From a virus, in the IMG/VR virus record IMGVR_UViG_3300030012_000623, positions 1 through 30,206 of that record: DNA of 30,206 nucleotides, one strand, 5' to 3'. The notes under the pieces were generated by a model. That model did not search any database, had not been told where the DNA came from, and saw nothing but the letters and a program-made list of their open reading frames with translations. The translations under genes and the position numbers were made by a program. Shown piece after piece: positions 455 to 29,811 of the stretch (positions within the stretch are counted from its first letter, which is position 1; every line of letters starts with the position of its first letter).

Positions 455-610
455 ATGAATATAAACTCAATCAATCAAATAATATCAAATGAAAAATCCA
501 GGGAGTTATTTATTGAAATAATTGCAGATGGAAAAACATTTACTATTAAAACAATTCAAAGTGATTTTGATGCAGAGATATTAAAAATCTTTGTTGAAGA
601 AAAAAAGTAA
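455..610 (+). CDS. Small early protein, unknown
   Basis: A 51-residue acidic protein starting MNINSINQII, with alternating hydrophobic positions in the second half that suggest a small alpha/beta fold. No family is recognised. The start at 455 is chosen because AAGGA lies just upstream, after a run of AAT repeats. A longer reading from 404 would have to translate the terminator stem and the AAT repeats as Asn residues, which is not credible. The gene lies between the terminator at 401-427 and the hairpin at 628-655, so it may be a single-gene transcription unit or depend on read-through. Confidence 0.6.
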   Translation: MNINSINQIISNEKSRELFIEIIADGKTFTIKTIQSDFDAEILKIFVEEKK

Positions 611-627
611 TAAATAACTTTACCTTT

Positions 628-655
628 ATAAACCTAGCCTTTAAGCTGGGTTTAT
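628..655 (+). other. AACCTAGC hairpin, copy 1
   Basis: Arms 628-638 and 645-655 pair over 11 bp (one G-U) around a 6-base loop. No T tract follows; instead an AAT-repeat leader and AAGGAG lead to the ATG at 695. Close copies lie at 1057-1084 and 29960-29983. It may be a weak terminator, an RNA-processing site or a protein-binding palindrome. Confidence 0.8.
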
Positions 656-694
656 AGAGTAAATAATAATAATAATCATAATAAGGAGACGACA

Positions 695-1042
695 ATGAGA
701 TATTTAGAAATAGAAAGCATCTGGGATAAAAATGGTAATAGTATTTTAGATAGAAGAAGCGAACACCAAGAGCTTACTTTCAATGTAAATCATAACAAAG
801 GCAAATCTAAGTGTTATCTTTTTGAATGTCAGAAACAAGACAGAATATTTATTTTATCAGTTGGTGCTTGTATCAAAGCTCAATATACAGATCAAGATTA
901 TGCTGAAGGGGAAAGACTTTCTAAGGTTGCACCACTAAATCATGGTGATATTGTTGGTATCGCAAATAGATTTGGTAAACAATACAAAGTTCATGTAAAT
1001 GGTAATTATTCAGATTTAGGAGAATTAATACCTATCAAATAA
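695..1042 (+). CDS. Early protein, unknown (115 aa)
   Basis: A 115-residue soluble protein of mixed charge, starting MRYLEIESIW. The central part alternates hydrophobic and polar residues (KCYLFECQ, RIFILSVGA), and a GD-IVGIANRFGKQYKV stretch near residue 85 hints at a beta-barrel or OB-like fold, but no family can be named. AAGGAG stands 8 bases before the ATG. The gene is bracketed by two copies of the AACCTAGC hairpin, so its mRNA may be processed or controlled as a separate unit. Confidence 0.7.
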   Translation: MRYLEIESIWDKNGNSILDRRSEHQELTFNVNHNKGKSKCYLFECQKQDRIFILSVGACIKAQYTDQDYAEGERLSKVAPLNHGDIVGIANRFGKQYKVHVNGNYSDLGELIPIK

Positions 1043-1056
1043 AAAGCTTTATCTTT

Positions 1057-1084
1057 ATGAACCTAGCATATAAGCTAGGTTTAT
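1057..1084 (+). other. AACCTAGC hairpin, copy 2
   Basis: Arms 1057-1067 and 1074-1084 pair over 11 bp with one G-U and a 6-base loop. It is followed by an AAT-repeat leader (about 1091-1112) and GGAGATCAAA before the ATG at 1124. The 3' flank TTTATAGAGT is shared with copy 1. Confidence 0.82.
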
Positions 1085-1113
1085 AGAGTTGATAATAATA
1101 GTAATAATAATAC

Positions 1114-1123
1114 GGAGATCAAA
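1114..1123 (+). promoter_or_regulatory. GGAGATCAAA ribosome-binding block
   Basis: Directly abuts the ATG at 1124, giving GGAG with 6-base spacing. One of six copies of this block in the window. Confidence 0.65.
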
Positions 1124-1363
1124 ATGCAAAATTTACAAAGTTCACAAGATTACGACAATTACCTAAAAAATTATATTAATAGATATATCGTAACTTCCTT
1201 CAAAGGCAGAGGAAGATATGACAAAGAATATTTTGATAATATGTCATCTGCTAAAAAATATAAAGATCACTTAATCAGAATGGGCGAAAGAGCAGTTGTC
1301 TATGGTATTTCAAAGCCCCCTCATACTATCCTAGAAGTAAATGTTTTAATGGAGAATCTATAA
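1124..1363 (+). CDS. Early protein, unknown (79 aa)
   Basis: A 79-residue basic protein, rich in Tyr and Asn in its first third (LKNYINRYIVTSF), with a short helical middle (SAAKKY-like) and a hydrophobic end. No family recognised. It begins a tight run of early genes: its stop overlaps the ATG at 1363 as TAATG, implying coupled translation. The start has the GGAGATCAAA block and lies downstream of hairpin copy 2. Confidence 0.68.
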   Translation: MQNLQSSQDYDNYLKNYINRYIVTSFKGRGRYDKEYFDNMSSAKKYKDHLIRMGERAVVYGISKPPHTILEVNVLMENL

Positions 1364-1602
1364 TGATTGATGAACCTACAAAAATTGGAAATACAGAACT
1401 CTATACAGTTAGGGTTCTGAATATTTCAGTAGCACAATATTATGGAGTTTTAAAAGAATATACAGAAATCCTGGTGAAAGCTAGAGAAGTTCAAAAAGAA
1501 CAATTAGCAAAAGAAGGATACCAAGCAGAATTAAAACTCTATTATGGAATTAAAAAAAATTTAAATGATTTAGTTAGAGAAAAATTAAAGGTGAAAAAAT
1601 GA
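1363..1602 (+). CDS. Early protein, unknown (79 aa)
   Basis: A 79-residue protein with a beta-like start (NTELYTVRVLNISVAQYYG) and a long charged helix rich in Lys and Glu that may form a coiled coil. No family recognised. It overlaps both neighbours (TAATG at its start, ATGA at its end), so it probably relies on re-initiating ribosomes from 1124-1363. Confidence 0.65.
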   Translation: MIDEPTKIGNTELYTVRVLNISVAQYYGVLKEYTEILVKAREVQKEQLAKEGYQAELKLYYGIKKNLNDLVREKLKVKK

Positions 1603-1691
1603 TAAAGTTTTTAAAAAATTATGGTGTTTATGTTTTAGAGTTTTTGGTTTTTGGAACAATTGGTTTTTGTCTTTTTATGTTCTTTTTTTAG
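1599..1691 (+). CDS. Single-span membrane micropeptide
   Basis: A 30-residue peptide starting MIKFLKNYGV. Residues 10-30 are almost wholly hydrophobic (Val, Leu, Phe, Ile, Gly), so it is likely one inner-membrane segment with a basic cytoplasmic start. Its ATG overlaps the previous stop as ATGA. Such phage micropeptides can act as membrane accessory or anti-host factors, but nothing here fixes a role. A chance ORF is possible; the coupled start and clean hydrophobic span favour a gene. Confidence 0.5.
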   Translation: MIKFLKNYGVYVLEFLVFGTIGFCLFMFFF

Positions 1692-1728
1692 ACAAATAAA
1701 TAATAATAATATAAATTGAAGAAGATTT

Positions 1729-2056: not shown

Positions 2057-2072
2057 TAATAAGGATAAAATA

Positions 2073-5661: not shown

Positions 5662-5949
5662 ATGAAAAGAAAAAATATTAAAAATAGTTATTATGAATTG
5701 AAAAAATTATTTAGAGAAAACAAAGAGAAAGCAAAAAAAGTTAAAGTAAAATGCAAAGAAAGATTTGAAGATGTACCAGTTGAATTATCTGATAAAGACA
5801 AAGAGGGAAAGATAGAAAAAAAGGGTTATATGGATTTTTATTTAAGTATGAGAGAAAACATAAATATCAAGGATTTACTTGTTCCAAGTGGTTTGACATC
5901 AAGCGATAAAAATTATGCAAATATTAAATTTGTAAAGGATTTAGATTAA
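5662..5949 (+). CDS. Basic protein, unknown
   Basis: A 95-residue protein, strongly basic in its first half (MKRKNIKNSYYELKKLF and a Lys-rich helix to about residue 50) and more mixed after it. TGGAG lies before ATG 5662, inside the end of the previous gene; the longer reading from 5617 lies wholly within that gene and is not needed. Being next to the initiator, it could be a helicase-loading or DNA-binding partner, but nothing shows this directly. It overlaps the ParB-domain gene as TAATG. Confidence 0.6.
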   Translation: MKRKNIKNSYYELKKLFRENKEKAKKVKVKCKERFEDVPVELSDKDKEGKIEKKGYMDFYLSMRENINIKDLLVPSGLTSSDKNYANIKFVKDLD

Positions 5950-6548
5950 TGAAAGTAAAACAAATAAATATTGATAAGATAATACCTTATCATAATAATC
6001 CCAGGAAAAACCAAGCAATAGATAAGGTTGCAAGTTCAATAAATGAATACGGATTTCAACAACCTATAGTAGTTGATTCAAATATGGTTGTTATTGTAGG
6101 GCATACTAGATTATTGGCATCAAAAAAACTTGGTTTAAAAAAAGTACCAATAGCTATTGCTGATTTATCTAAAAGCCAGGCAAAAGCTTATAGGTTAGCT
6201 GATAATAGAACAAATGAAGATAGTTCTTGGAACGAAGAATTATTAAAAGGAGAATTGTTAGATTTAGAAGGTTTATTAAGTTCAACTGGTTTTGAAGAAA
6301 GCGAATTAGAAAAGTTATTAGAAGAACCAGAACCAGAAGATGATGCAGATATTGTTTTTTCGGAAGAAATAGGAGAAACAAATAACTATGTAGTTTTAGT
6401 TTTTAAAAATGATATTGATTGGCTTTCTGCACAAACTCATTTTAATTTACAGACAGTAACAAGCAAAAGACAAAATGGGAAAGCCTGGAGCAAAGGTATT
6501 GGAAGGGTTTTAGATGGTGCAAAATATTTAACAGAGTTGAATAAATGA
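5949..6548 (+). CDS. ParB-domain (ParB/Srx fold) protein
   Basis: A 199-residue protein. Residues 1-95 are a ParB N-terminal-type domain: YHNNPRKN (14-21), SINEYGFQQPIVVD (30-43), the GHTR box (51-54) and the ADNR turn (84-87). Residues 110-140 are a Glu/Asp-rich linker. The end holds YVVLVF, then DWLSAQTHFN and KGIGRVLDGAKYL, a small C-terminal module seen in related phage proteins. Phage members of this fold bind nucleotides and DNA, and some nick DNA; many sit beside terminases and DNA-modification genes. Here it overlaps a TAGT glycosyltransferase by ATGA, which suggests the two act together on phage DNA. Confidence 0.82.
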   Translation: MKVKQINIDKIIPYHNNPRKNQAIDKVASSINEYGFQQPIVVDSNMVVIVGHTRLLASKKLGLKKVPIAIADLSKSQAKAYRLADNRTNEDSSWNEELLKGELLDLEGLLSSTGFEESELEKLLEEPEPEDDADIVFSEEIGETNNYVVLVFKNDIDWLSAQTHFNLQTVTSKRQNGKAWSKGIGRVLDGAKYLTELNK

Positions 6549-7267
6549 GGATAATTTCACCAAGTTATAAAAGGGCAAAAAGTGTAAAAACTCATAAATT
6601 AATAAAATCTGTAAGTTATGCAGTACATGAGTTTGAAGCAGAAGAATATAGAAAAGAAGGGTTTGAAGTAATTGTTTTACCAGATTCAACAAGGGGAAAT
6701 ATTCCAAATGTTAGAAATTGGTTATTGGATCAAAATATTAGAAATGAAATATTATTTATAGATGATGATATTGAAAGTTTTAATTATTGGGAAAATTGCA
6801 AACAAATAAAATTAAATGGTGAAAGATTACTAGAACATATTGAAATAATGTTAGAATTAGCAAAAAGTTGGGGAGTTTCATTATTTGGAGTAAATCCTGC
6901 AAGTGATAAGGGAAGCTATAGAGAATATACACCATTTAGCACAACAAGTTATATATCGTGTTCTTTTCATGGGTTGATAAATTGCAAACATAGGTATGAC
7001 CCAAACTTACCTTTGAAAGAGGATTACGATTTTTGCATACAAATATGTAATGATGAAAGACAAATATTAAGATTCAATCAATATTCATTAACAAAGAAAG
7101 ACCATGGCAATATTGGTGGTTGTGCTGATTACAGAACATTGGAAAGAGAAAAAGAGCAGATAAAAGCATTTCAAAAAAAATGGGGAAAAGAAATAGTACA
7201 AGAAGATAAATCAAGTAAAGGGTTTGATATTAACCCAATAGTAAAAATACCAATTAGAGGGGTATAA
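6545..7267 (+). CDS. TET-associated glycosyltransferase (TAGT)-like protein
   Basis: A 240-residue GT-A-type protein with the marks of the TAGT family: ISPSYKRAKS (4-13), GNIPNVRNWLLD (51-62), the metal/nucleotide-sugar DxD site FIDDDIESF (Asp73-75), YTPFSTTSYIS (128-138), LKEDYDFCIQ (157-166), an LRFNQY strand, and the closing KKWG. Known TAGTs add sugars to hydroxymethylated cytosine in phage DNA made by a TET/JBP oxygenase. No methylase, TET enzyme or nucleotide-modifying enzyme is recognisable elsewhere in this genome, so its acceptor is open: host-modified bases, a different base, or protein. It is joined by overlaps to the ParB gene and the small terminase. Confidence 0.78.
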   Translation: MRIISPSYKRAKSVKTHKLIKSVSYAVHEFEAEEYRKEGFEVIVLPDSTRGNIPNVRNWLLDQNIRNEILFIDDDIESFNYWENCKQIKLNGERLLEHIEIMLELAKSWGVSLFGVNPASDKGSYREYTPFSTTSYISCSFHGLINCKHRYDPNLPLKEDYDFCIQICNDERQILRFNQYSLTKKDHGNIGGCADYRTLEREKEQIKAFQKKWGKEIVQEDKSSKGFDINPIVKIPIRGV

Positions 7268-7572
7268 TGGCAAGACCTAAAAAGTATAATATTGACCCAA
7301 AGCAAGTTCAAAAGTTATCTGCATTAGGTTGTACTAATAAAGAAATATCTGAATTTTTTGGTTGTTCAGCAGACCTCCTGGAAAAGAGTTATTCGGAATT
7401 TCTGACAAAAGGAAGGGCAGAACAGCGAATAAGACTAAGACAGTTACAATGGAAGTCAGCAGAAAAAGGTAATGTTACAATGCAAATATTCCTGGGAAAA
7501 AATATGCTTGGACAACAAGATAGAATTGAAACAAATGAATTAGAAGAACCATTGGTGTGGTCTGCTGATTGA
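7267..7572 (+). CDS. terS: Terminase small subunit
   Basis: A 101-residue protein with an HTH (SALGCTNKEISEFFGCSADLL, residues 17-37) followed by a helical part and the signature KGNVTMQIFLGKNMLGQQD (residues 70-88), which I know from many small terminases placed just before the large subunit. It should bind the packaging site on phage DNA and recruit the large subunit. It overlaps the glycosyltransferase gene as TAATG and the large subunit gene by one base. Confidence 0.82.
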   Translation: MARPKKYNIDPKQVQKLSALGCTNKEISEFFGCSADLLEKSYSEFLTKGRAEQRIRLRQLQWKSAEKGNVTMQIFLGKNMLGQQDRIETNELEEPLVWSAD

Positions 7573-8789
7573 TGCCTTTAACTAAACCACAAAAAAAAGT
7601 AATTGAAGATGAATCAAGATTTAGAGTTTTAATAACTGGAAGGAGATTTGGAAAAACATTCCTGGCAATAAATGAATTAGCAAAGTTCGCAAGTCAACCA
7701 AATAAAAAAGTTTGGTATGTTGCACCAAGTTATAGACAAGCAAAAGCTATTTGTTGGAGTGTGTTAAAAGAAAAGATGATTTATCATAAATGGGTGAAAA
7801 GCATTAATCATAGTGATCTTACACTTACTTTAAAAAATAATTCACAAATATCTCTTAGAGGTTCAGACAATGAAAATTCATTAAGGGGTGTTGGTTTACA
7901 CTTCCTGGTAATGGACGAGTTCGCAGATATTGACAAACAAGCATGGTACGAGGTTTTAAGACCAACTTTATCTGATACAAGAGGACATGCTTTATTTTGT
8001 GGAAGTCCAAGGGGATTTGGCAACTGGAGTTATGAATTATTTAAACAAGGTGAAACAAACAATGATTGGCAATCTTTTAAATATACAACATTGGAAGGTG
8101 GGCAAGTTTCTGATGATGAAATAGAACAGGCTAAACAGGATTTGGATTTAAGAACATTTCAACAAGAATACGAAGCGACATTTGTAAATTATTCTGGTAT
8201 GATATATTACAATTTTAGCAGAGATAAAAATATAATAGAAAAGTATAATAAAAATTTTCAGTTTTTGCATATTGGATTAGATTTCAATGTAGACCCAATG
8301 ACAGCAGTAGTTTGCAATATTGAAGGCGAGAAAGTCCTGGTTGTTGATGAAATACAAATATATTCTTCAAATACAAATGAAATGTGTGAAGAAATTAAAA
8401 ACAGATATAAAAATAAAAATATTATTGTTTATCCAGACCCAAGTGCAAGACAAAGGAAAACTTCTGCTGGTGGCACAACAGATTTAGCTATTTTAAAAAA
8501 TGCAGGATTTGACGTAAGATGTAAAAATACTGCACCACTGGTTAGAGATAGAATAAATGCAGTTAATTCAAAACTTAAAAATGTTAATGGCAAAAATAAT
8601 TTATTTATTGTATCATCTTGCAAGAATGTCATTAAAAGTTTAGAAAGACAGATATACAAAGAGGGCACACATATTCCAGATAAAGAAAGTGGTTATGATC
8701 ACATGAATGATGCACTAGGTTATTTGATAGAATATAATTTTCCATTAAGAAGGAATTTTGTGTCTAGCCCACAGAAAAGGTGGAGTTAA
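7572..8789 (+). CDS. terL: Terminase large subunit
   Basis: A 405-residue packaging ATPase-nuclease. Visible parts: Walker A TGRRFGKT (22-29), Walker B FLVMDEFAD (Asp115-Glu116), coupling motif FCGSPRGFG, then the RNase-H-like nuclease with DFNVDP (Asp237), PDPSAR (Asp289) and DHMNDALGY (Asp376, Asp380). All key residues are present, so ATPase and cleavage should both work. ATG 7572 overlaps the small-subunit stop; the TTG one codon earlier is unlikely. Length is slightly short but within range. Circular permutation of the contig would fit headful (pac) cutting, but this is not proven. Confidence 0.95.
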   Translation: MPLTKPQKKVIEDESRFRVLITGRRFGKTFLAINELAKFASQPNKKVWYVAPSYRQAKAICWSVLKEKMIYHKWVKSINHSDLTLTLKNNSQISLRGSDNENSLRGVGLHFLVMDEFADIDKQAWYEVLRPTLSDTRGHALFCGSPRGFGNWSYELFKQGETNNDWQSFKYTTLEGGQVSDDEIEQAKQDLDLRTFQQEYEATFVNYSGMIYYNFSRDKNIIEKYNKNFQFLHIGLDFNVDPMTAVVCNIEGEKVLVVDEIQIYSSNTNEMCEEIKNRYKNKNIIVYPDPSARQRKTSAGGTTDLAILKNAGFDVRCKNTAPLVRDRINAVNSKLKNVNGKNNLFIVSSCKNVIKSLERQIYKEGTHIPDKESGYDHMNDALGYLIEYNFPLRRNFVSSPQKRWS

Positions 8790-19013: not shown

Positions 19014-19580
19014 ATGGCTAGAGGTTTAACAAGTGCAGTAAAAACAGAACTAGCTACCGGAGTAATAGAATCTGTTTTATTGATAGATATAGATTTTTCA
19101 ACAAGAGTATATTTAACAAATGCTAGTTTCGATATTACATCAAGTGTTTCTGGAAGTTCGCAAACTTATTTATCCAATGGACATTTTAGAGGAATAACCG
19201 GTGTTCAAGAAACAAATGCACCAACAAAAAATTCACTTTCTTTAAGTTTATCGGCTGTAGACCAAACGTATGTAGCATTAGCTCTTACCGAAAATATTAT
19301 TAATAAAAATGTTTTTATTTATCAAGGTTATTTAGATTCAAACTTAGCATTGATTCCAGACCCATTTTTATTATTTTATGGAACAATAGATGAATTTAAA
19401 GTTGCAGATAATACATCAACAGCAACATTAGTTTTGATAATAAGTTCACATTGGGGAAATTTTAGCAAAAAAAGTGGAAGGACAACTTCAAATAATTCAC
19501 AACAAAGATTTTTCCCAACAGATTTAGGAATGAATTTTAGTGCATTGACAGTAAGAGATATTAAATGGGGTAGAGAATGA
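19014..19580 (+). CDS. Minor tail protein (DUF2163/gpL-like)
   Basis: A 188-residue beta-rich protein: ESVLLIDIDFSTRVYLTNAS, SGSSQTYLSNGHFRGI, NSLSLSLSAVDQTYVALAL, VFIYQGYLDSN, LLFYGTIDEFKV. This is the hub-type fold found between the distal tail and tip proteins in lambda- and GTA-like tails. It should form the ring that carries the tip protein. The end overlaps the GNAT gene by ATGA. Confidence 0.75.
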   Translation: MARGLTSAVKTELATGVIESVLLIDIDFSTRVYLTNASFDITSSVSGSSQTYLSNGHFRGITGVQETNAPTKNSLSLSLSAVDQTYVALALTENIINKNVFIYQGYLDSNLALIPDPFLLFYGTIDEFKVADNTSTATLVLIISSHWGNFSKKSGRTTSNNSQQRFFPTDLGMNFSALTVRDIKWGRE

Positions 19581-20020
19581 CTAGTACTCATTTATATTAT
19601 GCAGAAAAATCAGACGTTGAAAGCATCTATGAACTAGCTATAGAATATAAAAATGTTGATTTGTCAGATGCTGATTATCCAGATATTGACAGAAATAAAT
19701 TAATTAATTTTATCAATACAATGTTAAAAAAAGGTAAAATTATGTTAATGAAAGATTTAGACAAAGATAGATTAATTGCTTGTTGTATGTTTAATAAATC
19801 TGAATATTTTTTTAGTAAAACAGAAATTATGCAAATACAAATAGTATATGTAAAAAAAGATTATAGAAATTTTAATTTAGTAAAAACATTAATTGATAGT
19901 GTAAAAAAACAAGCTGATGGATTGCCTTTAGTTTTATCAATAACTTCTGGTTTAGGTATTGACCCAGTTTTTCAAAAACTAGGTTTTAAAAATATGGGTT
20001 CTAATTGGAGATATATATAA
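19577..20020 (+). CDS. GNAT-type acetyltransferase in the tail operon
   Basis: A 147-residue protein with the GNAT plan: N-terminal helix after HLYYAEKSDVESIYEL, strands KIMLMKDLDKDRLIACCMFN and IMQIQIVYVKKDYRN, a helix NLVKTLIDSVKKQ, then LVLSITSG and FQKLGFKNMGSNWRYI. The acetyl-CoA loop is loose (DYRNFNLV, not the classic Q/R-x-x-G-x-G/A), so catalysis is likely but not certain. It sits where lambda has tail-tip assembly gene K. It could acetylate a tail protein or a host target. Overlaps gpL-like upstream; the J-like gene begins directly after. Confidence 0.75.
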   Translation: MTSTHLYYAEKSDVESIYELAIEYKNVDLSDADYPDIDRNKLINFINTMLKKGKIMLMKDLDKDRLIACCMFNKSEYFFSKTEIMQIQIVYVKKDYRNFNLVKTLIDSVKKQADGLPLVLSITSGLGIDPVFQKLGFKNMGSNWRYI

Positions 20021-23011
20021 ATGGGTGGTTGGAATCCTATTGATGATTTAACAGATCTCATTGACGATCTTGTTGATGGTATTAGTGACTTAATTGAAGA
20101 TGTTATTTCTTGGATTGTTCCAATGCCAGATATTCCGGATTTTGGCACTCTTAGACCAGATCAAAATGCAAAAGGAATATTAGTAAATAAAATAAGTGCA
20201 AATGGTGCTATACCAATTATTTATGGAAGAAGAAAAGTTGGTGGAAATATTGTATATTTAGAAACTAGGCATCTTAGTCAAAGCACAGCAGATAATAAAT
20301 TTTTGATGATGGCACTAGTTTTAAGTGAAGGCGAAATTTCAAGTATTGATGGGATTTATGTAAATGACAAATTGGTCGTTTTTGATGGCAGTGTTAGTGA
20401 TAATGTAATAAGGAATGTAAGTAGTTCAGATCAAAACTTTTTTGACACAGAAGAAAATCAAGGTTTAATAAGAGTTGAAGCACATTTTGGTACTGATTCA
20501 CAAGGTTCATCTAATCTTTTAGGACAATCAAATACAAGTTGGACAACAGACCATAAACTTTCTGGATTAGCATATTTAGCTTTGGAATTTAGATGGAACG
20601 CTGATGCTTTTGGTTCATTGCCAACTGTTCAAGCATTGGTTAAAGGTCGTAAGGTATATGACCCAAGATTAGATAGCACTGTTACTGGAGGGAGTGGAAG
20701 CCATAGAGCAGATAACAGTTCAACTTGGGCATTTTCAGATAACCCAGTTTTACAAATGCTTGATTATTTGAGAAACGATAGGTTTGGTATGGGAATAACA
20801 AATAGTTATTTTGATAGTAATTTTGCAGATTGGCAAACAGCATCAAATGTTTGTGATACACAAATAACCCCAGTTAATGCAAATGCTCTACCTGTTATAT
20901 TTCATGGGTTTGGGTTTGGTTATGGTGGAGAAACAACTTCAAACACTATTGATTTAATGAATAGTAATACAGTTATAGATACTGCAAAAAATGCAATAGA
21001 TAATGTAAAAGAATTTGTAAGGGGTTCAAGATCATATTTAAATTTTTCTGGTGGTAAATATAATATTTTAGTTGAAAGCACTGGCACAGCTTCAATTACA
21101 CTTACAGAAGATAATATTCTTGGTGGAATAAATGTCATATCAAAAAATAAAAATTCAAGATTTAATAGAGTCATAGTAAATTTCATAAACCCAGATAAAA
21201 ATTATCAATCAGATTCAGCACAGTTTCCACCAGTAAATGAAGATTTGTTAACAGATACAGCAGATAAACATTCTTCATTATTAGCCGAAGATGGTGGAAT
21301 ATTATTGGAAGGTCGATTTGATTTTTCAATGTTGACTAATAAATTTCAAGCACAAGAAATGGCAGAAATAATTTTAAGACGTTCAAGATCAAGTTTAAAT
21401 GTTTCATTTAAAGCAGATGCTACAGCATTAGATTTATTAGTTGGAGATATTGTAAATATAACCCATGCAACACCTAGTTTTTCTGCAAAGCCTTTTAGAG
21501 TTCAAGGAATGACTTTAAATGCAGATCACACAATAAGTTTGAGTTGTTCAGAACATCAAGATTCATATTATACATTTGGCACACAAGACCCAATAGATGA
21601 ATTAATAGATACAACTTTACCTAACCCATTTAATGTTGCAACACCTAACATTTCTGTATCAGATGAATTAAGAGCTCTTAATGAGGAAGCAATAAGTGTA
21701 TTAGTTGTTGAAGCTACAACTGCTGATTTGTTTGCTACTGATTTTGAAGTTCAAGCTAAAAAAACCACTGACACAGATTTTATAAATTTAGGAAAAGCAA
21801 GTGGTAAAAAATTTGAATTAATAAATGTTGAAGATGATGCAATCTACAATGTAAGGGCAAGAACAATCACTTCATTAAGTCGTTCTGTATTTGTTTCAAC
21901 AACACATCAAATAGTTGGAAAAACAGCACCTCCAGAAACAGTAACAAATTTTTCAATAAATATAGTTAATACAGAAGCTCATTTATCCTGGACACCAGTT
22001 GGTGATTTAGATTTATCACATTATAGAATTAGACATTCAAGAGATACTACAGCAAGTGCAAACTATGCGAATTCTGTTGATTTGATAGCGAAAGTTTCAA
22101 GACCGGCTAATACCGCTGTAGTACCCGCAATGACAGGAACATATTTTATAAAAGCTGTTGATAAATTAGGTAATGAATCACTTGATGCAACATCTTCAGT
22201 TGCGATTATTCAAAATATAAAAGATTTAAATTTAGTTTCTACTTCCACACAAAACCCAACTTTTTCTGGGGCAAAGTCGAATGTTGTTGTTGTTGGAAAT
22301 ACATTAAGATTAGCAACAAGTACATTATTCGATAGTGGTGCAGGAAATTTTGATTCAACTGGTGGTTTGTTTGATGGTGGTGGTGGTAAAGTTTCTGCAA
22401 GTGGAACTTATGATTTTGATACACATATTGATGTAGGTGGTGTTTTTACTAATAGGGTTACAGCAAATGTAACAATGAATAGAGTGAGTTTTGGAATTTC
22501 ATTTGATGATGCAACTGGAAATTTTGATGCTCGTGAAGGTTTATTTGATGGTGATGCAAATGAATTTGGTGATACAAATGTTGAGTTGCAAATAGCAACA
22601 ACAGAAGACGACCCAGGAAGTGGAAGCCCAACATATACTTCATTTAGAAAATTTTTTGTTGGAGATTATAAAGCTAGAGGATTTAAGTTTAGAGCAGTGT
22701 TAACTACATTAGATTCAGAAGCAACACCAAGTGTGAGTGCTTTATCTGTAACTGTTGATATGCCAGATAGAGTTATAGCTGAAAATGATATTGCTAGTGG
22801 AGCAGGGGCAAAAGCTATTACATTTAGTCCTGCATTCAAATCTCTCCAGGGTGTAGGTATTTCTGCTCAGAACTTGGCGAGTGGTGATTTCTATGCTATA
22901 ACAAATAAAAGTGCTACTGGTTTCACAATTACGTTTTTTAATAGTAGTAGTTCTGCGATAAATAGAACATTTGATTATGTAGCAAAAGGTTTTGGCGAAT
23001 TAGTAACATAA
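20021..23011 (+). CDS. Tail tip / host attachment protein, J-like
   Basis: A 996-residue protein, the largest here. An amphipathic Asp/Ile-rich start (residues 5-35) is followed by the J-type hub: GAIPIIYGRRKVGGNIVYLE, VQALVKGRKVYDPRLD, LDYLRNDRFGMG and RFNRVIVNFINP. A fibronectin-III-like domain follows (about residues 637-725, PPETVTNFSI then AHLSWTP). Beyond it come two similar Gly/Asp stretches, GNFDSTGGLFDG near 776 and GNFDAREGLFDG near 833, in a beta-rich end likely to touch the cell surface. It should form the tail tip that contacts the receptor. Confidence 0.9.
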   Translation: MGGWNPIDDLTDLIDDLVDGISDLIEDVISWIVPMPDIPDFGTLRPDQNAKGILVNKISANGAIPIIYGRRKVGGNIVYLETRHLSQSTADNKFLMMALVLSEGEISSIDGIYVNDKLVVFDGSVSDNVIRNVSSSDQNFFDTEENQGLIRVEAHFGTDSQGSSNLLGQSNTSWTTDHKLSGLAYLALEFRWNADAFGSLPTVQALVKGRKVYDPRLDSTVTGGSGSHRADNSSTWAFSDNPVLQMLDYLRNDRFGMGITNSYFDSNFADWQTASNVCDTQITPVNANALPVIFHGFGFGYGGETTSNTIDLMNSNTVIDTAKNAIDNVKEFVRGSRSYLNFSGGKYNILVESTGTASITLTEDNILGGINVISKNKNSRFNRVIVNFINPDKNYQSDSAQFPPVNEDLLTDTADKHSSLLAEDGGILLEGRFDFSMLTNKFQAQEMAEIILRRSRSSLNVSFKADATALDLLVGDIVNITHATPSFSAKPFRVQGMTLNADHTISLSCSEHQDSYYTFGTQDPIDELIDTTLPNPFNVATPNISVSDELRALNEEAISVLVVEATTADLFATDFEVQAKKTTDTDFINLGKASGKKFELINVEDDAIYNVRARTITSLSRSVFVSTTHQIVGKTAPPETVTNFSINIVNTEAHLSWTPVGDLDLSHYRIRHSRDTTASANYANSVDLIAKVSRPANTAVVPAMTGTYFIKAVDKLGNESLDATSSVAIIQNIKDLNLVSTSTQNPTFSGAKSNVVVVGNTLRLATSTLFDSGAGNFDSTGGLFDGGGGKVSASGTYDFDTHIDVGGVFTNRVTANVTMNRVSFGISFDDATGNFDAREGLFDGDANEFGDTNVELQIATTEDDPGSGSPTYTSFRKFFVGDYKARGFKFRAVLTTLDSEATPSVSALSVTVDMPDRVIAENDIASGAGAKAITFSPAFKSLQGVGISAQNLASGDFYAITNKSATGFTITFFNSSSSAINRTFDYVAKGFGELVT

Positions 23012-23021
23012 AGAGGTAAAT

Positions 23022-23468
23022 ATGGCTCAACACGATTATGTAATAGATAACCAAACATTTCCTGCAACAAGGACAGATATTAATAATGTACTACAAGCTA
23101 TAGTTTCGGTAAATAGTGGTTCTTCTGCACCAAGCACAACATATGCTTATCAATTATGGTACGATACAAGTAATAACATTTTGAAAATAAGAAATGCTGA
23201 TAATGATGCCTTTATAAATTTGTTTACATTTGACCAAACAGCAGACACAGCCGAAGTATCAGCAGGAGGAGGTGCAGGGTTTTTCCAGGGTGATAATGGT
23301 AGTCAAGGCGATACTACAAATGGAAAAAAAGATATATTTAGAACCCACGAACAAGAACTAAATACAAATACAACAATAGCTTCTGGCGATAATACTGGTT
23401 GTTTTCATAGCCTTTCTATCGCAAGTGGTATAACATTAACAGTAGCAGGAAATTTGGTGATAGCATGA
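23022..23468 (+). CDS. Small tail tip/fibre-associated protein
   Basis: A 148-residue protein: MAQHDYVIDNQTFPATRTDI, then NNVLQAIVSVNSGSSAP, an LWYDTSNNILKIR strand, and a Gly/Thr/Ser-rich end with ASGITLTVAGNLVIA. This start is typical of small marine phage fibre or fibre-adaptor proteins linking the tip to longer fibres. AGAGG before ATG 23022; overlap by ATGA with the first long fibre. Confidence 0.72.
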   Translation: MAQHDYVIDNQTFPATRTDINNVLQAIVSVNSGSSAPSTTYAYQLWYDTSNNILKIRNADNDAFINLFTFDQTADTAEVSAGGGAGFFQGDNGSQGDTTNGKKDIFRTHEQELNTNTTIASGDNTGCFHSLSIASGITLTVAGNLVIA

Positions 23469-24547
23469 GTTCAACAATAAAAGTAAATAATATTCAAAAT
23501 TTAGCGGGTGATGATAGTGGTATAGATCTATCAACAAATGACCAAATAATTTTAAAAACTGCTAATACTACAGCAATAACAGTAGATAGTTCTCAAGATG
23601 TAAGTATGGGTGGAAAGCTAGGAATAGGTGCTTCCACCATAGATAGTGATATTCACATAGAAAAGTCATCTGATTTAGAAATTAAATTAGAAAGAACTGG
23701 TGCAGGCACATCAACTATAGGTGTGCCATCAAGTGGGCAACTGCTTATAAATAATACGTCAAATGCTGATATGATTTTTTCTACAAATAATGCGGAGAGA
23801 TATAGAGTCAAAAATAATGGCAATTTTCTTATAGGAACAACTGATCAAAGTCCTGCTGAAAGCTCTAGTGTTAATGGTACAAGGATAGGCAGTACTGGTA
23901 AAATTCAAGTTTCAGCTAATGGCGATTCTGGAATACAAGTAAACAGAACAAGTGATGATGGTAATTTAGTATTATTAAGACAAGCAGGAACTGTTGAAGG
24001 TAGTATTACTGTAAGTGGTTCAACTGTTTCATATAATGGTGGTCACTTAGCTAGATGGTCAAGATTACTTGATAACAGTAAAGACACATCAATAGTCAAA
24101 GGCACAGTAATGACTAATCTTGATGAAATGGTTGAATGGAAACATGAAAAAGAGTTATGGACTAAAGATGATGAACTGCCTGTTGGAGTATCTGTAGGTG
24201 ATATAAAAAAAGATGCTTATACAGAAGATAATGAACAGTTAAATAAAATGGCAGTATCAAGTGTTGAGGGTGATGATAATGTTGCAGGGGTTTTTGTTAA
24301 TTGGGATGATGATGATGATTCTAACGATATGAATGTTGCAATGACTGGTGATATGGTCATTAGAATTGCACAAGGAACAAAAGTCGCTAGAGGTGATTTA
24401 CTTATGAGTGCAGGAGATGGTACTGCAAAACCTCAAGATGATGATATTGTAAGAAGTAAAACAATAGCAAAAGTAACATCAACAAAAGTATCGCATACAT
24501 ATGATGATGGCACTTATCTAGTGCCATGTGTATTGATGGCTTGTTAG
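23465..24547 (+). CDS. Tail fibre 1 with autoprotease-type end
   Basis: A 360-residue protein. It opens with the adapter STIKVNNIQNLAGDDSGIDL, shared with fibre 2, then a repeated beta shaft. From about residue 198 it changes to HLARWSRLLDNSKDTSIVKG, EWKHEKELW and GDLLMSAGDGTAKPQ, which resembles the Peptidase_G2-type autoprocessing/chaperone end and not S74. An acidic DDDDDSND loop may bind metal. It is the first of three tandem fibres, each likely trimeric. Confidence 0.75.
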   Translation: MSSTIKVNNIQNLAGDDSGIDLSTNDQIILKTANTTAITVDSSQDVSMGGKLGIGASTIDSDIHIEKSSDLEIKLERTGAGTSTIGVPSSGQLLINNTSNADMIFSTNNAERYRVKNNGNFLIGTTDQSPAESSSVNGTRIGSTGKIQVSANGDSGIQVNRTSDDGNLVLLRQAGTVEGSITVSGSTVSYNGGHLARWSRLLDNSKDTSIVKGTVMTNLDEMVEWKHEKELWTKDDELPVGVSVGDIKKDAYTEDNEQLNKMAVSSVEGDDNVAGVFVNWDDDDDSNDMNVAMTGDMVIRIAQGTKVARGDLLMSAGDGTAKPQDDDIVRSKTIAKVTSTKVSHTYDDGTYLVPCVLMAC

Positions 24548-24556
24548 GAGTAGAGA

Positions 24557-25567
24557 ATGTCAGAAATTAAAGTAAATAGTGTTGTAAACTCAACTGGAGA
24601 TAATGACAGTGGATTAGATTTATCAACTAATGATAAAATAGGAATGAAAATAGCAAATAGCGAAGTTGCTACAATAGACACAACTGGAGTTGTTTTTAAT
24701 GAGGGTTCAGCAGATAGAGATTTTAGAGTTGAATCAGATGCTAAAACACATGCTTTTTTTCTTGAAGGCAGTACAAGTCGTGCGGGTTTTGGAACTAGCA
24801 GTCCATCAGCAGGGTTACATTTAGAAGGCACAGCAGACAATCTCGCTTCACAATTAAAAATAACTGCAAGTGGTGTTGTTTCACAATACATAGGTGGCAG
24901 TAGTTCAGAAGGGTTATCTATTGGACACGATAGTGGAAGTTTACCTATTGTATTCAAAACTGGTGTAAATGGTAATACTGGTGTTACTGGCTCTGGCACA
25001 GAACGTATGCGAATAGACAGCAGTGGTCATTTTATGATTGGCAGAACCAGTTTTAGCTTTGATAATACTTCTGGCTTTTCTGTTGCAGGGTCTGGTTCAA
25101 CTATAGGTCAAATACACTCTATTACAGATGGTGAAGAGTGTATAAAATTGAATAGGAAAAATAGTAATGGAAATGGTTTAGCTTTTTTTAGAGGGTCAAC
25201 AAATAATGTTGGAAGTATAAATTTTGGTACAAGTTCAGTATCTTACAACACTTCTAGTGATTACAGATTAAAAGAAAATTTAGAATATAATTTTGATGCA
25301 ACAACAAGACTAAAACAACTAAAGCCTTGTAGATTTAATTTTATAACAGATGCAGATAATACTGTTGATGGCTTTTTGGCTCATGAGGTATCAAGCATAG
25401 TTCCAGAAGCTATAAGTGGAGAGAAAGATGCAGTAGATGCAGATGGAAATATTGACCCACAAGGCATAGATCAAAGTAAACTTGTACCTCTTTTAGTTAA
25501 ATCATTACAAGAAGCATTTACAAGAATAGATACATTAGAAGCCGAAGTAAAAGCATTGAAAGGTTAA
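24557..25567 (+). CDS. Tail fibre 2 with S74 self-cleaving chaperone
   Basis: A 336-residue protein. The start SEIKVNSVVNSTGDNDSGLD matches fibre 1, followed by a Ser/Gly beta shaft. The end is an S74 intramolecular chaperone: SSDYRLKENL with Ser234 and Lys239 five apart, as in the catalytic Ser-Lys pair of the endosialidase chaperones, then GFLAHEVSSIVPEAISGEKD and a coiled-coil tail. It should cut itself before Ser234 after the trimer folds. Confidence 0.85.
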   Translation: MSEIKVNSVVNSTGDNDSGLDLSTNDKIGMKIANSEVATIDTTGVVFNEGSADRDFRVESDAKTHAFFLEGSTSRAGFGTSSPSAGLHLEGTADNLASQLKITASGVVSQYIGGSSSEGLSIGHDSGSLPIVFKTGVNGNTGVTGSGTERMRIDSSGHFMIGRTSFSFDNTSGFSVAGSGSTIGQIHSITDGEECIKLNRKNSNGNGLAFFRGSTNNVGSINFGTSSVSYNTSSDYRLKENLEYNFDATTRLKQLKPCRFNFITDADNTVDGFLAHEVSSIVPEAISGEKDAVDADGNIDPQGIDQSKLVPLLVKSLQEAFTRIDTLEAEVKALKG

Positions 25568-25570
25568 AAT

Positions 25571-26443
25571 ATGAGTACATTAACAGTAGGAACAATAGCA
25601 GAAAAAGTTACTGATGCCGGAGTAGCAGTTGATGGTGTAACTCTAAAAGATGGTGATGTAACCATTGCAGATAAAATCATACATGATGGAGATACCAACA
25701 CAGCTATAAGGTTTCCTAGTGCTGATACAATATCATTTGAAACTGGTGGTAGTGAAGCTGGGCGAATTACATCTGATAGGCATGTTTTGATTGGTACGAC
25801 CACAGATGGAACAACAGCAGTAGGTACTGTGATTAGAGATGCAGGTGAAGTTTTAATTACTAGAGATAGTAACCCACCTTTATTGCTTAATAGAAATACA
25901 AGCAGTGGTGATGCTATTGAACTTAGAAAAGATAACGTCAGAGTTGGTGGAATTGTAGTAAGGACAAATGATGTAGGCATTAGTGAGGGTGATACTGGAA
26001 TAAAATTTTTAGGTGATAATGATGATATTAGACCTTGTAATGGAAGTAATTCAGATAGAGATAATGCTATAGATTTAGGAGATGCAAGTGCAAGATTTAG
26101 TGAAGTTCATGCAACAACTGGAGCAATACAAACTTCAGACAGAAATGAGAAACAAGATATAGAAGAATTAAATGATTCAGAAAAAAATGTTGCTGTAGTA
26201 GCTAAAAGTCTTTTAAGAAAATATAGATGGAAACACGCAGTTGAAGAAAAAGGTGATAAGGCAAGAACTCACTTTGGTATTATAGCACAAGACTTACAAG
26301 ACGCTTTTACAGCAGAGGGTTTAGATGCAAGTAACTATGCAATGTTTTGTTCAGATACTTGGACAGATGAAGATGGCAAAGAACATACTAGATTAGGTAT
26401 AAGGTATCCTCAATTATTAGCATTTATTATATCGGCTATATAG
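25571..26443 (+). CDS. Tail fibre 3 with S74 chaperone
   Basis: A 290-residue protein. It has a different start (STLTVGTIAEKVTDAGVAVD), a beta shaft, and an S74-type end: TSDRNEKQDIEEL with Ser189 and Lys194 five apart, HFGIIAQDLQDAF, and a final RYPQLLAFIISAI. The last coiled coil is shorter than in fibre 2, so trimer formation may differ. It may be an alternative fibre or a second receptor binder. Confidence 0.8.
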   Translation: MSTLTVGTIAEKVTDAGVAVDGVTLKDGDVTIADKIIHDGDTNTAIRFPSADTISFETGGSEAGRITSDRHVLIGTTTDGTTAVGTVIRDAGEVLITRDSNPPLLLNRNTSSGDAIELRKDNVRVGGIVVRTNDVGISEGDTGIKFLGDNDDIRPCNGSNSDRDNAIDLGDASARFSEVHATTGAIQTSDRNEKQDIEELNDSEKNVAVVAKSLLRKYRWKHAVEEKGDKARTHFGIIAQDLQDAFTAEGLDASNYAMFCSDTWTDEDGKEHTRLGIRYPQLLAFIISAI

Positions 26444-26451
26444 GTAATTAA

Positions 26452-26619
26452 ATGTCAAAACCAAGTATTCAAAGCATAAATTTAAAATTAGAAAAACACA
26501 TTGCTGTTAGTGATGAAAGATTTATTGAATTATTAAGTAGGGTTAAAAGATTAGAGCATATAATGATAGGTACATCTGGCACAGCAATAGTAATGCTAAT
26601 AGGTTTACTCGTGAGGTAA
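26452..26619 (+). CDS. XhlA-like membrane protein
   Basis: A 55-residue protein: an amphipathic helix (residues 8-36, LKLEKHIAVSDERFIELLSR and on) followed by one membrane span (38-54, IMIGTSGTAIVMLIGLLV). This plan matches small XhlA-type lysis accessories, in which a coiled coil is joined to one C-terminal anchor. It opens the lysis region right after the fibres. The family match is by architecture only. Confidence 0.6.
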   Translation: MSKPSIQSINLKLEKHIAVSDERFIELLSRVKRLEHIMIGTSGTAIVMLIGLLVR

Positions 26620-26620
26620 T

Positions 26621-27370
26621 ATGGTAGTTGCAGAAATTCTTACTGGTATTGCTCTAGTACAAAAATCAGTAGAGTTTATTAAGAGCAACATAGCCACAGC
26701 AAAAGACATAAAAGACATAGCCAAGCAAATTGATGGGTTCTTTGAAGGCGAAGAACAAATGAATAAGAAGCAAGGCAAGGGCATGGGTATTGCTCAACAG
26801 TTTGGCATTGAATCAACAGCATCAGATTTTATAGATAGAAAATTACTTGAAGAACAACGATATGAGTTGAAGCTATTAATTGATAATAGATTTGGGCATG
26901 GCACTTGGAATCAAATTCTTTCTGAAAGAGCCGATAAAATAAAACAAGCTAAAGAAGCACAAAGACAAGCTAAATTAGAAGCTAAGAAACAAAAAGAAGA
27001 AGTTTTTGAAGCAATAAAATGGGTAGCGATTATTTTATTTGGGGTGGGTGTAACCATCTTACTTTTGGTGTTAGGTCTAAAAGCGTTTGCTACAGAATTA
27101 GTTTATGAATACAAACCCAAAGATTATTCAAGACAACAAAAAACATGGAGAAATCCAGATTTAAAAAAATACACAACTTGTAGATTGAAGAAAAGAATTA
27201 CATCAAAATATACTAACAAAAAAGCTTGTATATATGAGGGTGGTAATAAGACTTTTACAATGATGATTGAAACTTGGTGTCCTCGCAAATATCGTTGTGT
27301 TTATGACCCAAATGGAAGCGAACCAGACATTGATAAAGTGATGGATAGTTTGAGGAGCATAAAAGATTGA
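26621..27370 (+). CDS. Membrane protein with Cys-rich outer domain
   Basis: A 249-residue protein. Residues 1-130 are a helical cytoplasmic part (IALVQKSVEFIKSN, then LDN-type RFGHGTWNQIL and a Lys/Ala coiled coil). One span lies at 134-153. Beyond it is a basic domain with four Cys (187, 203, 220, 226) that may form two disulfides in the periplasm. The N-terminal half resembles uncharacterised marine phage proteins. Its place beside holin and lysozyme genes suggests lysis or envelope action; role unproven. Confidence 0.62.
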   Translation: MVVAEILTGIALVQKSVEFIKSNIATAKDIKDIAKQIDGFFEGEEQMNKKQGKGMGIAQQFGIESTASDFIDRKLLEEQRYELKLLIDNRFGHGTWNQILSERADKIKQAKEAQRQAKLEAKKQKEEVFEAIKWVAIILFGVGVTILLLVLGLKAFATELVYEYKPKDYSRQQKTWRNPDLKKYTTCRLKKRITSKYTNKKACIYEGGNKTFTMMIETWCPRKYRCVYDPNGSEPDIDKVMDSLRSIKD

Positions 27371-27573
27371 TTACAGCATTTATGTTATATTGTGCTATGC
27401 AACCAGCAAAAATGAATATTGCTAAAATTTATTTTAAATCGGTTAATGATTGTACTTATTATGCAGAAAAACTAAGTGGACAAGAGTTTATGTCTGTAAA
27501 TGGCAATCAAACTTATGAATGTGTTTGCAAATTAGTTCCAAGCATAAACCCAGACAAAGTAAAGGTTTATTGA
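27367..27573 (+). CDS. Small Cys-rich, possibly exported protein
   Basis: A 68-residue reading from TTG 27367, or 63 from ATG 27382. A short hydrophobic start (MITAFMLYCAM) precedes a domain with Cys 29, 52 and 54. The signal is too short to be sure of export. It overlaps the previous gene, which also has an outer Cys-rich domain, so the two may partner in the envelope. Spanin-like function is possible but no lipobox or clear anchor is seen. Confidence 0.5.
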   Translation: MITAFMLYCAMQPAKMNIAKIYFKSVNDCTYYAEKLSGQEFMSVNGNQTYECVCKLVPSINPDKVKVY

Positions 27574-28000: not shown

Positions 28001-28440
28001 ACATAGAAGAATTAAAAGAACATATTGCTCAAGAAGAAGGTTTGAAATATGAAATTTACCGATGCAGTGAAGGTTACCCCACGGCAGGGATAGGACATTT
28101 AATCACTGAATGGGACGAGGATTATTATGGAAAACCAATAGGAACAGAAGTTTCAAAAGAACAAGTTGATTCCTGGTTTGAAAAAGATTTAAATGTTGCA
28201 ATACGTGATATGGAACAATTTACAGAAGGCATGAATGTAGACGAAAATGTTAAAGAATGTGTAACTCACATGGTGTTTCAATTAGGTTTACCAAGATTAA
28301 ATAAATTTAAAAAATTTAAACAAGCATTATTAGATAAGGATATTGAAACTGCACAAGCCGAAATGAAAGATTCACTTTGGTATAGACAAACAACAAATAG
28401 AGCAGAAAGATTAATTGAAAAATTAGGGAAAAGTGCATGA
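27997..28440 (+). CDS. T4-type lysozyme (GH24 endolysin)
   Basis: A 147-residue enzyme closely following T4 lysozyme: QEEGLKYEIYRCSEGYPTAG with catalytic Glu14 and Thr29, then IGHLITEW. The T4 Asp20 position is Cys23 here, a natural E-C-T form also seen in other phage lysozymes. Later parts fit: FEKDLNVAIRDM, VTHMVFQLG, LWYRQTTNRAERLI. It cleaves the glycan chain of peptidoglycan. No signal peptide is seen, so a holin must let it out. Confidence 0.93.
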   Translation: MNIEELKEHIAQEEGLKYEIYRCSEGYPTAGIGHLITEWDEDYYGKPIGTEVSKEQVDSWFEKDLNVAIRDMEQFTEGMNVDENVKECVTHMVFQLGLPRLNKFKKFKQALLDKDIETAQAEMKDSLWYRQTTNRAERLIEKLGKSA

Positions 28441-28814
28441 TTGCAAGTTTATTACCAGTTGCATCTAAGTTATTAGGCAAATTTATTGAGGATAAGGACA
28501 CCAAAAATAAATTAGCACATGAGATAGCCACCATGGCAGAGAAACATGCCCAGGCATTGGCTATGGAGCAAATAAAGGTAAATCAAGAAGAAGCAAAAGG
28601 CAATTGGTTTCAAAGTTCCTGGCGACCCCTTATAGGTTGGATTTGCGGTCTTTCCTTAATGATAAATTACATGGTGTCGCCTATTTTAGCAGGGTTTGGA
28701 ATAATCATACCACAAGCTGATATGTCGGTAATGATGCCCCTTTTATTTGGAATGCTTGGCATATCTGGATTAAGAAGCTTTGATAAATATAAAAAAACGG
28801 ACACAAAAAAATGA
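28437..28814 (+). CDS. Holin-like protein (3TM/GTA holin family)
   Basis: A 125-residue protein: a helical start, a central SSWRPLIGWICGLSLMINYM (residues 60-79), a second span around 80-92 and a third at 98-112 (VMMPLLFGMLGISG), and a basic tail. The SWRPLIGW motif is the mark of the 3-span holin family (PF11351). It overlaps the lysozyme gene by ATGA, as holin and endolysin pairs do. Confidence 0.85.
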   Translation: MIASLLPVASKLLGKFIEDKDTKNKLAHEIATMAEKHAQALAMEQIKVNQEEAKGNWFQSSWRPLIGWICGLSLMINYMVSPILAGFGIIIPQADMSVMMPLLFGMLGISGLRSFDKYKKTDTKK

Positions 28815-28984
28815 GCAAATTTTATATGAAGTTATACGATTTTTTTACAAGCATAGCGAATTATTTTTGGAAAAAAGCATTGCAACCAAGAAAAGAAAGG
28901 AGCTATCATGGCACTAACACCGAAACAAAAAAAGTTACCAAAAGGGCTACAAGAAGCAATTCTAAAAAGTCAAAAAAAAGGTAA
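28811..28984 (+). CDS. Small basic protein, unknown
   Basis: A 57-residue reading. The first 33 residues (MSKFYMKLYDFFTSIANYFW and on) look like a conserved amphipathic segment of marine phages. The rest shares DNA with the next gene in another frame and is simply Lys/Thr-rich, so only the first half may be under selection. ATGA overlap with the holin gene supports translation. Confidence 0.55.
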   Translation: MSKFYMKLYDFFTSIANYFWKKALQPRKERSYHGTNTETKKVTKRATRSNSKKSKKR

Positions 28985-29009
28985 AAAGAAAAAGAAGGGG
29001 AAAAAATAA
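28908..29009 (+). CDS. Tiny polylysine protein
   Basis: A 33-residue protein: MALTPKQKKLPKGLQEAILK and then a nearly pure Lys/Gly tail. This start is one I recognise from many marine phage genomes. AAGGAG before the ATG gives a near-ideal ribosome site, the best in the region. The protein is short enough to be missed by most gene finders. It likely binds nucleic acid or ribosome; role unknown. Confidence 0.72.
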   Translation: MALTPKQKKLPKGLQEAILKSQKKGKKKKKGKK

Positions 29010-29095
29010 TGCCTTATCATTATGGGAGCAGAATGACTTCAAAACCTATGAAAAAAAAGAAAAAGAAAAAAAATAAAATGAGAAAGAAAAAATAA
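29009..29095 (+). CDS. Tiny polylysine protein
   Basis: A 28-residue protein: MPYHYGSRMTSKPMKKKKKK and an Arg/Lys tail. The MPYHYG start followed by Lys runs is another recurring marine phage micro-protein. The ATG overlaps the previous stop as TAATG. Role unknown. Confidence 0.62.
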   Translation: MPYHYGSRMTSKPMKKKKKKKNKMRKKK

Positions 29096-29278
29096 ATGGT
29101 TTTAGTCAAATCTATTAAAAAATTTACAGCTAATCTAAACAAAACTCAAAAGAAAGCTATGAATAAACATGCTAAGCATCATTCAATGAAACACATGAAA
29201 CAAATGTCAAAAGATTTAGAAGATGGAAAAACATTCGCTCAAGCACATACAAGAGCAATGCGGAAAGTTGGTAAATGA
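29096..29278 (+). CDS. Small His/Lys-rich phage protein
   Basis: A 60-residue protein: KKFTANLNKTQKKAMNKHAK, HHSMKHMKQMSKDLEDGKTF and AQAHTRAMRKVGK. The KHSKHHS...HM...GKSF.QAH...M.KVGK pattern is one I know from marine phages. It is helical and positively charged. It follows the previous stop directly and overlaps the next gene as ATGA. Confidence 0.68.
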   Translation: MVLVKSIKKFTANLNKTQKKAMNKHAKHHSMKHMKQMSKDLEDGKTFAQAHTRAMRKVGK

Positions 29279-29424
29279 ACGGATTTACTACAACAGCAAC
29301 TTTAGCTGAATTAATAGATAAAAGACCTATGCGAAAAAGAAAAGGTAGGACAAGAAAGAATAGAATGCCCTTTAAGGGCAGTTTAAGGGCGGTACAGAAG
29401 CTCTTAAAGATAAAAAGGGTTTAG
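29275..29424 (+). CDS. Tiny basic protein
   Basis: A 49-residue protein starting MNGFTTTATLAELIDKRPMR, with an Arg/Lys-rich end. Last forward gene before the reverse nuclease gene. The DNA contains GCCCTTTAAGGGC, a perfect palindrome (from about 29367), that could also act as a weak hairpin near the operon's end. ATGA overlap supports expression. Role unknown. Confidence 0.55.
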   Translation: MNGFTTTATLAELIDKRPMRKRKGRTRKNRMPFKGSLRAVQKLLKIKRV

Positions 29425-29439
29425 TACTAGGGATTCCTC

Positions 29440-29811
29440 CTAACACCTCGCTGGAATGTTTTTTTCAACTATTTGTTTTATTTGATCTAAACATTCTGTT
29501 AAACACCCCTTAACCACAAAGTGGGGTGTATCTAGTGCTTTTGATTGTACCGCCCACAATTTTTGATTTGGAGTCAATCTGCCTTTTTCGTTTTTGAGTT
29601 CTATATACAATAACCTCCCTGGGAAATATTCAATTATAATATCTGGACAACCAGATTTAAGACCCATTTTTTTCATTTTAGCATGAAGATAAATTGACCT
29701 TTTGCCTTCATTTGGCACATGAAAATGTCTAAAGAAATAAAATTTGGAAAGATGATTTAAATAATCATTACAAGCTATTTGAATATCTGATTCTTTAGTC
29801 ATAGGGGGCAT
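29440..29811 (-). CDS. VRR-NUC domain nuclease
   Basis: A 123-residue protein and the only reverse gene. It has the VRR-NUC core: KKMGLKSGCPDIIIEY (Asp57), LLYIELKNEKGRLTPNQK (Glu71, Lys73, Gln83), in order D-ExK-Q. Family members are Holliday-junction or structure-selective nucleases. AGGA lies before its ATG at 29811. A resolvase on its own promoter would serve in late replication or before packaging. It converges on the late operon with only 15 bases between stops. Confidence 0.88.
   Translation of the reverse strand: MPPMTKESDIQIACNDYLNHLSKFYFFRHFHVPNEGKRSIYLHAKMKKMGLKSGCPDIIIEYFPGRLLYIELKNEKGRLTPNQKLWAVQSKALDTPHFVVKGCLTECLDQIKQIVEKNIPARC

Follow-up and report, generated by a model that had tools for sequence, protein, structure and literature searches.

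The 30,206-base viral record IMGVR_UViG_3300030012_000623, analysed over its whole length (hereafter the window), carries the genes of a tailed phage and a large excess of the palindrome CCWGG (W is A or T), which on balance is probably the target of a DNA modification by a ParB-like protein and a TAGT-family glycosyltransferase encoded by the phage itself, with selection having raised the density of sites. A sequence-only reading of the same DNA had reported about 50 CCWGG, no CCSGG (S is C or G), about four GGWCC, and an expectation of roughly a dozen CCWGG from composition. Exact counting gave exactly 50 CCWGG (26 CCAGG and 24 CCTGG) and 0 CCSGG, and base composition predicted 11.9 CCWGG; GGWCC was low as described, but numbered 5, and the example coordinates for CCWGG were all correct. 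Markov models of order 1, 2 and 3 predicted 18.7, 22.1 and 26.9 sites. When synonymous codons were shuffled genome-wide, 8.4 sites were expected, against 49 in coding sequences (z = 21.8; maximum of 14 among 400 shuffles), and 12.6-13.2 were expected when the codon-junction dinucleotide was also kept (z = 14-15). The codon-preserving shuffle named as a check by the sequence-only reading therefore yielded 8-13 sites, not about 50. Equal enrichment of unrelated pentamers, its second check, was not seen, since CCWGG ranked first by over-representation among all 4-6-mers scanned. The excess, about five times the codon prediction, is robust to codon and dinucleotide structure, and composition or codon bias as its cause was rejected by the Markov models and codon shuffles.

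The 50 sites began at positions 498, 1470, 1780, 1995, 2289, 2941, 3310, 3941, 4235, 4384, 4604, 4812, 4848, 6001, 6176, 6484, 7377, 7491, 7661, 7904, 8336, 8962, 9454, 10222, 10751, 10981, 11106, 11387, 12030, 12627, 13256, 13282, 14269, 14480, 16698, 16913, 17286, 17487, 18228, 18512, 21987, 22613, 22846, 23285, 27662, 27864, 28172, 28550, 28618 and 29618, the last ending at 29622. Seven were in codon phase 0 (Pro-Gly), 14 in phase 1 and 29 in phase 2, covering many amino-acid pairs, in agreement with the earlier claim that all three phases are used and that protein sequence does not explain the sites. CTG made up 3.5% of Leu codons in the window versus about 1% in the related loci L106, L122 and L058, and 17 of the 26 CTG codons of the genome sat within CCTGG. 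The concentration of about two thirds of the sites in the first half was borne out (34 of 50); it arose because the tail and fibre module (19100..27400) showed only a weak excess (4 vs 2.1 expected), and all blocks outside 19.1-27.4 kb, the right end included, were enriched 4.5-20 fold. The fibre genes had no homologue among the related loci, which fits a recent exchange of the tail and fibre module; such an exchange probably took place. No repeats were found around the sites, each surrounding 13-mer being unique, and the sites, scattered across genes, shared no longer motif and no regular spacing.

Within the window's phage family, the excess followed the TAGT gene. The 13 TAGT-bearing loci contained 186 CCWGG versus 47 expected, members of this lineage being mostly enriched 3-6 fold, whereas the 49 loci without TAGT contained 67 versus 153 expected and none was enriched (Mann-Whitney p = 1e-6, with contigs that are not fully independent). 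Relatives whose capsid protein was 90-96% identical but which had no TAGT gene held almost no CCWGG. TAGT was the only window gene present in every enriched locus covering the region and in 0 of 54 depleted loci. Among related contigs from the same metagenome, L001 and L103 were enriched and L157 and L169 had no CCWGG. The sequence comparison thus indicates that the excess is lost or replaced in near relatives with another cassette or none, and it supports one cause that the sequence-only reading had offered, recognition of CCWGG by the phage's own ParB/TAGT system, although the association is not universal.

The slot between the replication gene and the terminase was a hot spot of alternative DNA-modification cassettes in this family, comprising ParB+TAGT, ParB+TET+TAGT, ParB+Mom, ParB fused to N6/N4 methylases, ParB+TET+amino-acid:DNA transferase (ADDT), and ParB+apparent 7-deazaguanine genes. 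TET, TAGT, Mom, ADDT and methylases were called with Pfam, and the 7-deazaguanine genes were recognised by inspecting their proteins. Examples of pre-terminase cassettes other than that of the window were apparent 7-deazaguanine genes at L069:5919-9659, TET with ADDT at L167:968-4686, Mom at L043:7445-8116 and ParB-TET-TAGT at L066:1598-3362. Locus L004, with an excess of both CCWGG and CCSGG, was checked as a possible mosaic and showed no clear partition.

About 150 related contigs without TAGT were aligned, and CCWGG occurred at the window's site positions in almost none of them. Compared with the nearest site-free relative, the sites differed by 1-4 substitutions of all kinds at all four fixed positions, and in 30 of 48 sites at least two of these four positions were changed; a typical replacement was TTTAG in the relative versus CCTGG in the window (Phe-Leu). 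Measured against the nearest relatives that lack the sites, 31 of 87 differences were transversions. Positions 1 and 2 showed T>C, A>C and G>C among other classes, and positions 4 and 5 showed A>G, T>G and C>G (direction not polarised). All overlapping codons were synonymous in 26 of 45 sites. Because substitutions of every kind occurred at all fixed positions and were often synonymous, the CCWGG sites were evidently built by selection for the word and not by Dcm/Vsr-type repair. Within the enriched clade, a third-codon C or G was kept in 85% of cases inside sites versus 72% elsewhere (p = 5e-5); it was shared with four non-enriched relatives in 14% of cases inside sites versus 42% elsewhere (p = 1e-13). 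Phages are known for losing restriction sites (PMC6286503), and the window's relatives likewise avoid CCNGG, GGWCC and GATC. Here, however, phages that carry one type of modification cassette show a strong rise in a single palindrome: through selection, the lineage has acquired dozens of copies, and its near-identical relatives without sites serve as controls.

The ParB-like protein (199 aa; 5949..6548, + strand) matched Pfam ParB_N with E = 2.9e-10 (alignment A2), and ParB/Noc chains in the PDB matched the same alignment with E = 1e-12. Its ParB_N domain spans residues 1 to about 125 and is followed by a C-terminal domain of about 70 residues, which was found in 93 loci, all of them with TAGT. 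The predicted local distance difference test score (pLDDT) of the model was 74 overall and was high over the ParB_N part only. No ParA match was obtained among the larger window proteins scanned, and CCWGG is far shorter than parS. The adjoining TAGT-family glycosyltransferase (240 aa; 6545..7267, + strand; alignment A1) matched Pfam TAGT PF20691 with E = 5.3e-19 and 69.4 bits versus the curated cut-off of 27.5, residues 1-191 aligning to profile positions 1-204. Its DDD motif (residues 73-75) was invariant in 13 homologues. The AlphaFold2 model predicted a GT-A fold (pLDDT 83; predicted template modelling score 0.84), and its best structure matches in the PDB were nucleotide-sugar glycosyltransferases; a PDB sequence search with TAGT gave no meaningful match. 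The nearest fold was AvpGT, which glucosylates nucleoside sugar hydroxyls (PMC11959488), at a template modelling (TM) score of 0.55 that is too weak for inferring chemistry. Among named isolate records, the closest one found for the window TAGT was the Streptococcus prophage Javan291 (host S. marmotae HTS5), where the ParB-TAGT pair lies before the terminase at L412:14807-16158.

We infer that the ParB-like protein and TAGT would together mark CCWGG on replicated phage DNA, with ParB contributing to sequence reading and the mark being bulky and probably sugar-containing (glycosidic). Phages with more marks would leave more descendants, and sites would accumulate wherever codons permit. The benefit may be protection from host nucleases, for instance from defences to which bulky marks are an obstacle, or, alternatively, self-recognition at packaging. 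A single-molecule real-time (SMRT) survey of surface-ocean DNA reports CCWGG as a motif whose cytosine is modified in viral genomes only, within one Caudovirales clade, and a methylase was encoded in only 14 of its 83 modified viral genomes (PMC9516812). The N4-methylcytosine (m4C) calls of that survey could be other cytosine modifications.

Both TAGT-linked hypermodification and ParB partners of modifying enzymes are already known kinds of system. TET-TAGT systems share with the window the protein family, GT-A fold, DDD motif and phage genome location, and the window's relatives L036, L066 and L120 carry ParB-TET-TAGT; accumulation of the target site in such systems was not described in the literature found. 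The ParB-like partner DpdB of DpdA is discussed in PMC12839542, and there too a ParB-fold protein is encoded beside a DNA-modifying enzyme. However, the partner in the window is a glycosyltransferase, and its ParB ends in a dedicated domain that was encountered only alongside TAGT. Genome-wide accumulation of a presumed target that switches with the cassette between close phages was not found in the open-licence papers that were searched. We suggest, tentatively, that ParB with a lone TAGT is a new sequence-specific DNA glycosylation system acting without an oxidised base, in which partner enzymes swap on a shared ParB guide, phages rewrite their genomes to gather the target, and specificity is readable from sequence alone. 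Should CCWGG prove to be what is modified, genome sequence would allow prediction of the sequence specificity of viral DNA-modification systems that are still uncharacterised, and the modification islands of ocean phages (glycosyltransferase, TET, Mom, amino-acid transferase, 7-deazaguanine and methylase) would be directly testable.

Other ParB-TAGT phages, with unrelated terminases, were recovered by a search with the TAGT alignment, and on this comparison the pair is again linked with CCWGG or CCGG in two further families of phages. An excess of CCWGG was also present in L005/L006/L242, L223, L224, L205 and L008. The observed/expected counts were 28/8.3 in L242 and 21/7.9 in L006 (terminase 52-53% identical) versus 0/6.3 and 0/4.5 in portal relatives of L242 (95-97% identity), of which L257 has ParB and a Mom-like gene instead. 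In a third family, CCGG was enriched with ParB-TAGT in L190, L194, L333 and L336, and 0-1 CCGG occurred in relatives whose TerL is 96-98% identical but whose ParB cassette is different. The CCGG effect was smaller under the stricter shuffle that keeps the codon-junction dinucleotide (z = 3.4-4.8).

Several results weigh against CCWGG as the ParB-TAGT target. Of the 96 loci that matched TAGT strongly, only 14 were CCWGG-enriched and 82 showed no excess, the remaining TAGT carriers showing CCGG, GGATCC or nothing. Near relatives L183, L184 and L216 had no CCWGG excess (on short contigs with low expectation), and no palindrome was enriched in Javan291, indicating that the ParB-TAGT pair alone is not sufficient for the excess. 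CCWGG-rich L363 and L374 have ParB with PAPS-reductase-like and Mom-like partners, as judged by inspection. Searches of the window and of about 20 further phage records with ParB-TAGT gave no oxidase, C5-methylase or hydroxymethylase that could prepare a base for glycosylation. The TET/JBP oxygenase (PF12851), which accompanies TAGT in TET-TAGT systems, was absent from the window while the positive controls L036, L066, L120 and L167 were detected; C5-methylase (PF00145) and thymidylate-synthase-like hydroxymethylase (PF00303) had no match in the window or in 26 related records. The window still avoids GATC, GGCC and GCGC, showing that the mark would be no general shield against restriction. 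Further, the viruses of the SMRT survey (PMC9516812) were not matched to the window phage.

A strong competitor, to which we give somewhat less credence than to a ParB-TAGT target, is that ParB and not the glycosyltransferase reads CCWGG (or CCGG and other words), the chemistry being set by the partner, whether a glycosyltransferase or a Mom-like, sulphur- or methyl-transferring enzyme. CCWGG was in excess where ParB had partners other than TAGT (observed/expected 16/2.9 in L363 and 9/1.5 in L374). It was also kept in L110 and L225, whose ParBs are 86-92% identical and whose TAGTs are only 50-53% identical, and L194 and L333, both CCGG-rich, share 92% of the ParB N-domain and 46% of TAGT. The retention of the motif by close ParBs with swapped TAGTs hints that ParB reads the site, and the CCWGG labels required 7 changes on the ParB tree versus 9 on the TAGT tree, a slight edge to ParB. 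However, the ParB N-domains of CCWGG phages are 30-45% identical and resemble those of their own phage family, so that backbone inertia can explain the pattern, and ParB_N is generally a nucleotide-binding fold and not a reader of 5 bp. CCSGG, which most relatives avoid, was enriched about 4-6 fold in L131 (ParB-methylase), L167 (ParB-TET-ADDT), L107, L109 and L383, with sites in phases 1 and 2 for the four loci that were checked, and is a second palindrome switch that is not tied to the TAGT cassette. Because CCWGG and CCSGG excesses occur with ParB and non-TAGT partners, a more general rule may hold by which the target of a ParB-linked modification accumulates, TAGT being one of several chemistries. 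ParB-like genes beside PAPS-reductase-like genes (by inspection) were located at L363:1772-5116 (CCWGG-enriched), L383:457-3567 (CCSGG-enriched) and L400:4452-6277 (GATC-enriched); these loci possibly encode a sulphur-based DNA modification.

A role of the mark, or of CCWGG itself when unmarked, in packaging or in the terminase's discrimination of self from host, instead of in anti-restriction, is unlikely. ParB and TAGT were adjacent and directly upstream of TerS-TerL wherever mapped, including families with unrelated terminases and a Streptococcus prophage, as such a role would suggest. However, many phages of the window's family manage packaging with neither the cassette nor the sites, and the aperiodic spacing and lack of an extended motif also speak against the recombination or packaging signal that the sequence-only reading had listed among possible causes.

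A by-product of avoided neighbouring words or of codon-pair bias is very improbable as the source of the excess. TCAGG/CCTGA was indeed absent from the window (0 vs 41 expected) and other words were avoided, but the TCAGG avoidance is common to site-free relatives, CCWGG covers all phases and many amino-acid pairs, and its sites replace unrelated words such as TTTAG. GGATG/CATCC (2 vs 25 expected) was likewise depleted and GGCC and GCGC were both 0, as in most related loci. Since the depletion of TCAGG and CATCC is common to most site-free relatives, it probably reflects avoidance of host restriction. CCCGC/GCGGG (often ACCCGC) was over-represented about 5-10 fold in L106, L115, L116, L136, L147, L153, L155 and L157. 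The L106 excess, which lends the by-product explanation some support, was set aside as a parallel case and attributed to codon context because 33 of 36 sites were in phase 0 (Pro-Ala, Ala-Gly) and the locus holds no cassette in L106.

The least credible cause, and one that the sequence-only reading had proposed, is a host Dcm-like methylase with Vsr-type T>C repair pushing CCWGG up by mutation: CCWGG is the classic Dcm/Vsr site and is over-represented here as in the enterobacterial system, but Vsr repair should generate a single class of change, T>C at position 2 (seen as A>G at position 4 when the opposite strand is repaired), with depletion of CTWGG and CCWAG, whereas only 32 of 87 differences were of this class, CTWGG (27 vs 24 expected) and CCWAG (41 vs 29 expected) showed no deficit in the window, no C5-methylase gene was present there, and near relatives from the same metagenome had no CCWGG.

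The gene modules of the window were replication, ParB-like, TAGT glycosyltransferase, TerS, TerL, portal, scaffold, capsid, tape measure, tail, fibres and lysis. The small terminase subunit TerS (7267..7572, + strand; phrog_309, E = 4.7e-9) was, by synteny, the conserved right-hand neighbour of the ParB-TAGT cassette and was followed by the large subunit TerL (7569..8789, + strand; phrog_2, E = 9.5e-45). A megablast of the window against isolated phages returned a 78-base match only. The host is probably a marine alphaproteobacterium, since the nearest isolates by terminase were cultured Pelagibacter phages (57-58% identity). A small protein at 100-411 matched the anti-restriction family phrog_7245 (E = 6e-8).

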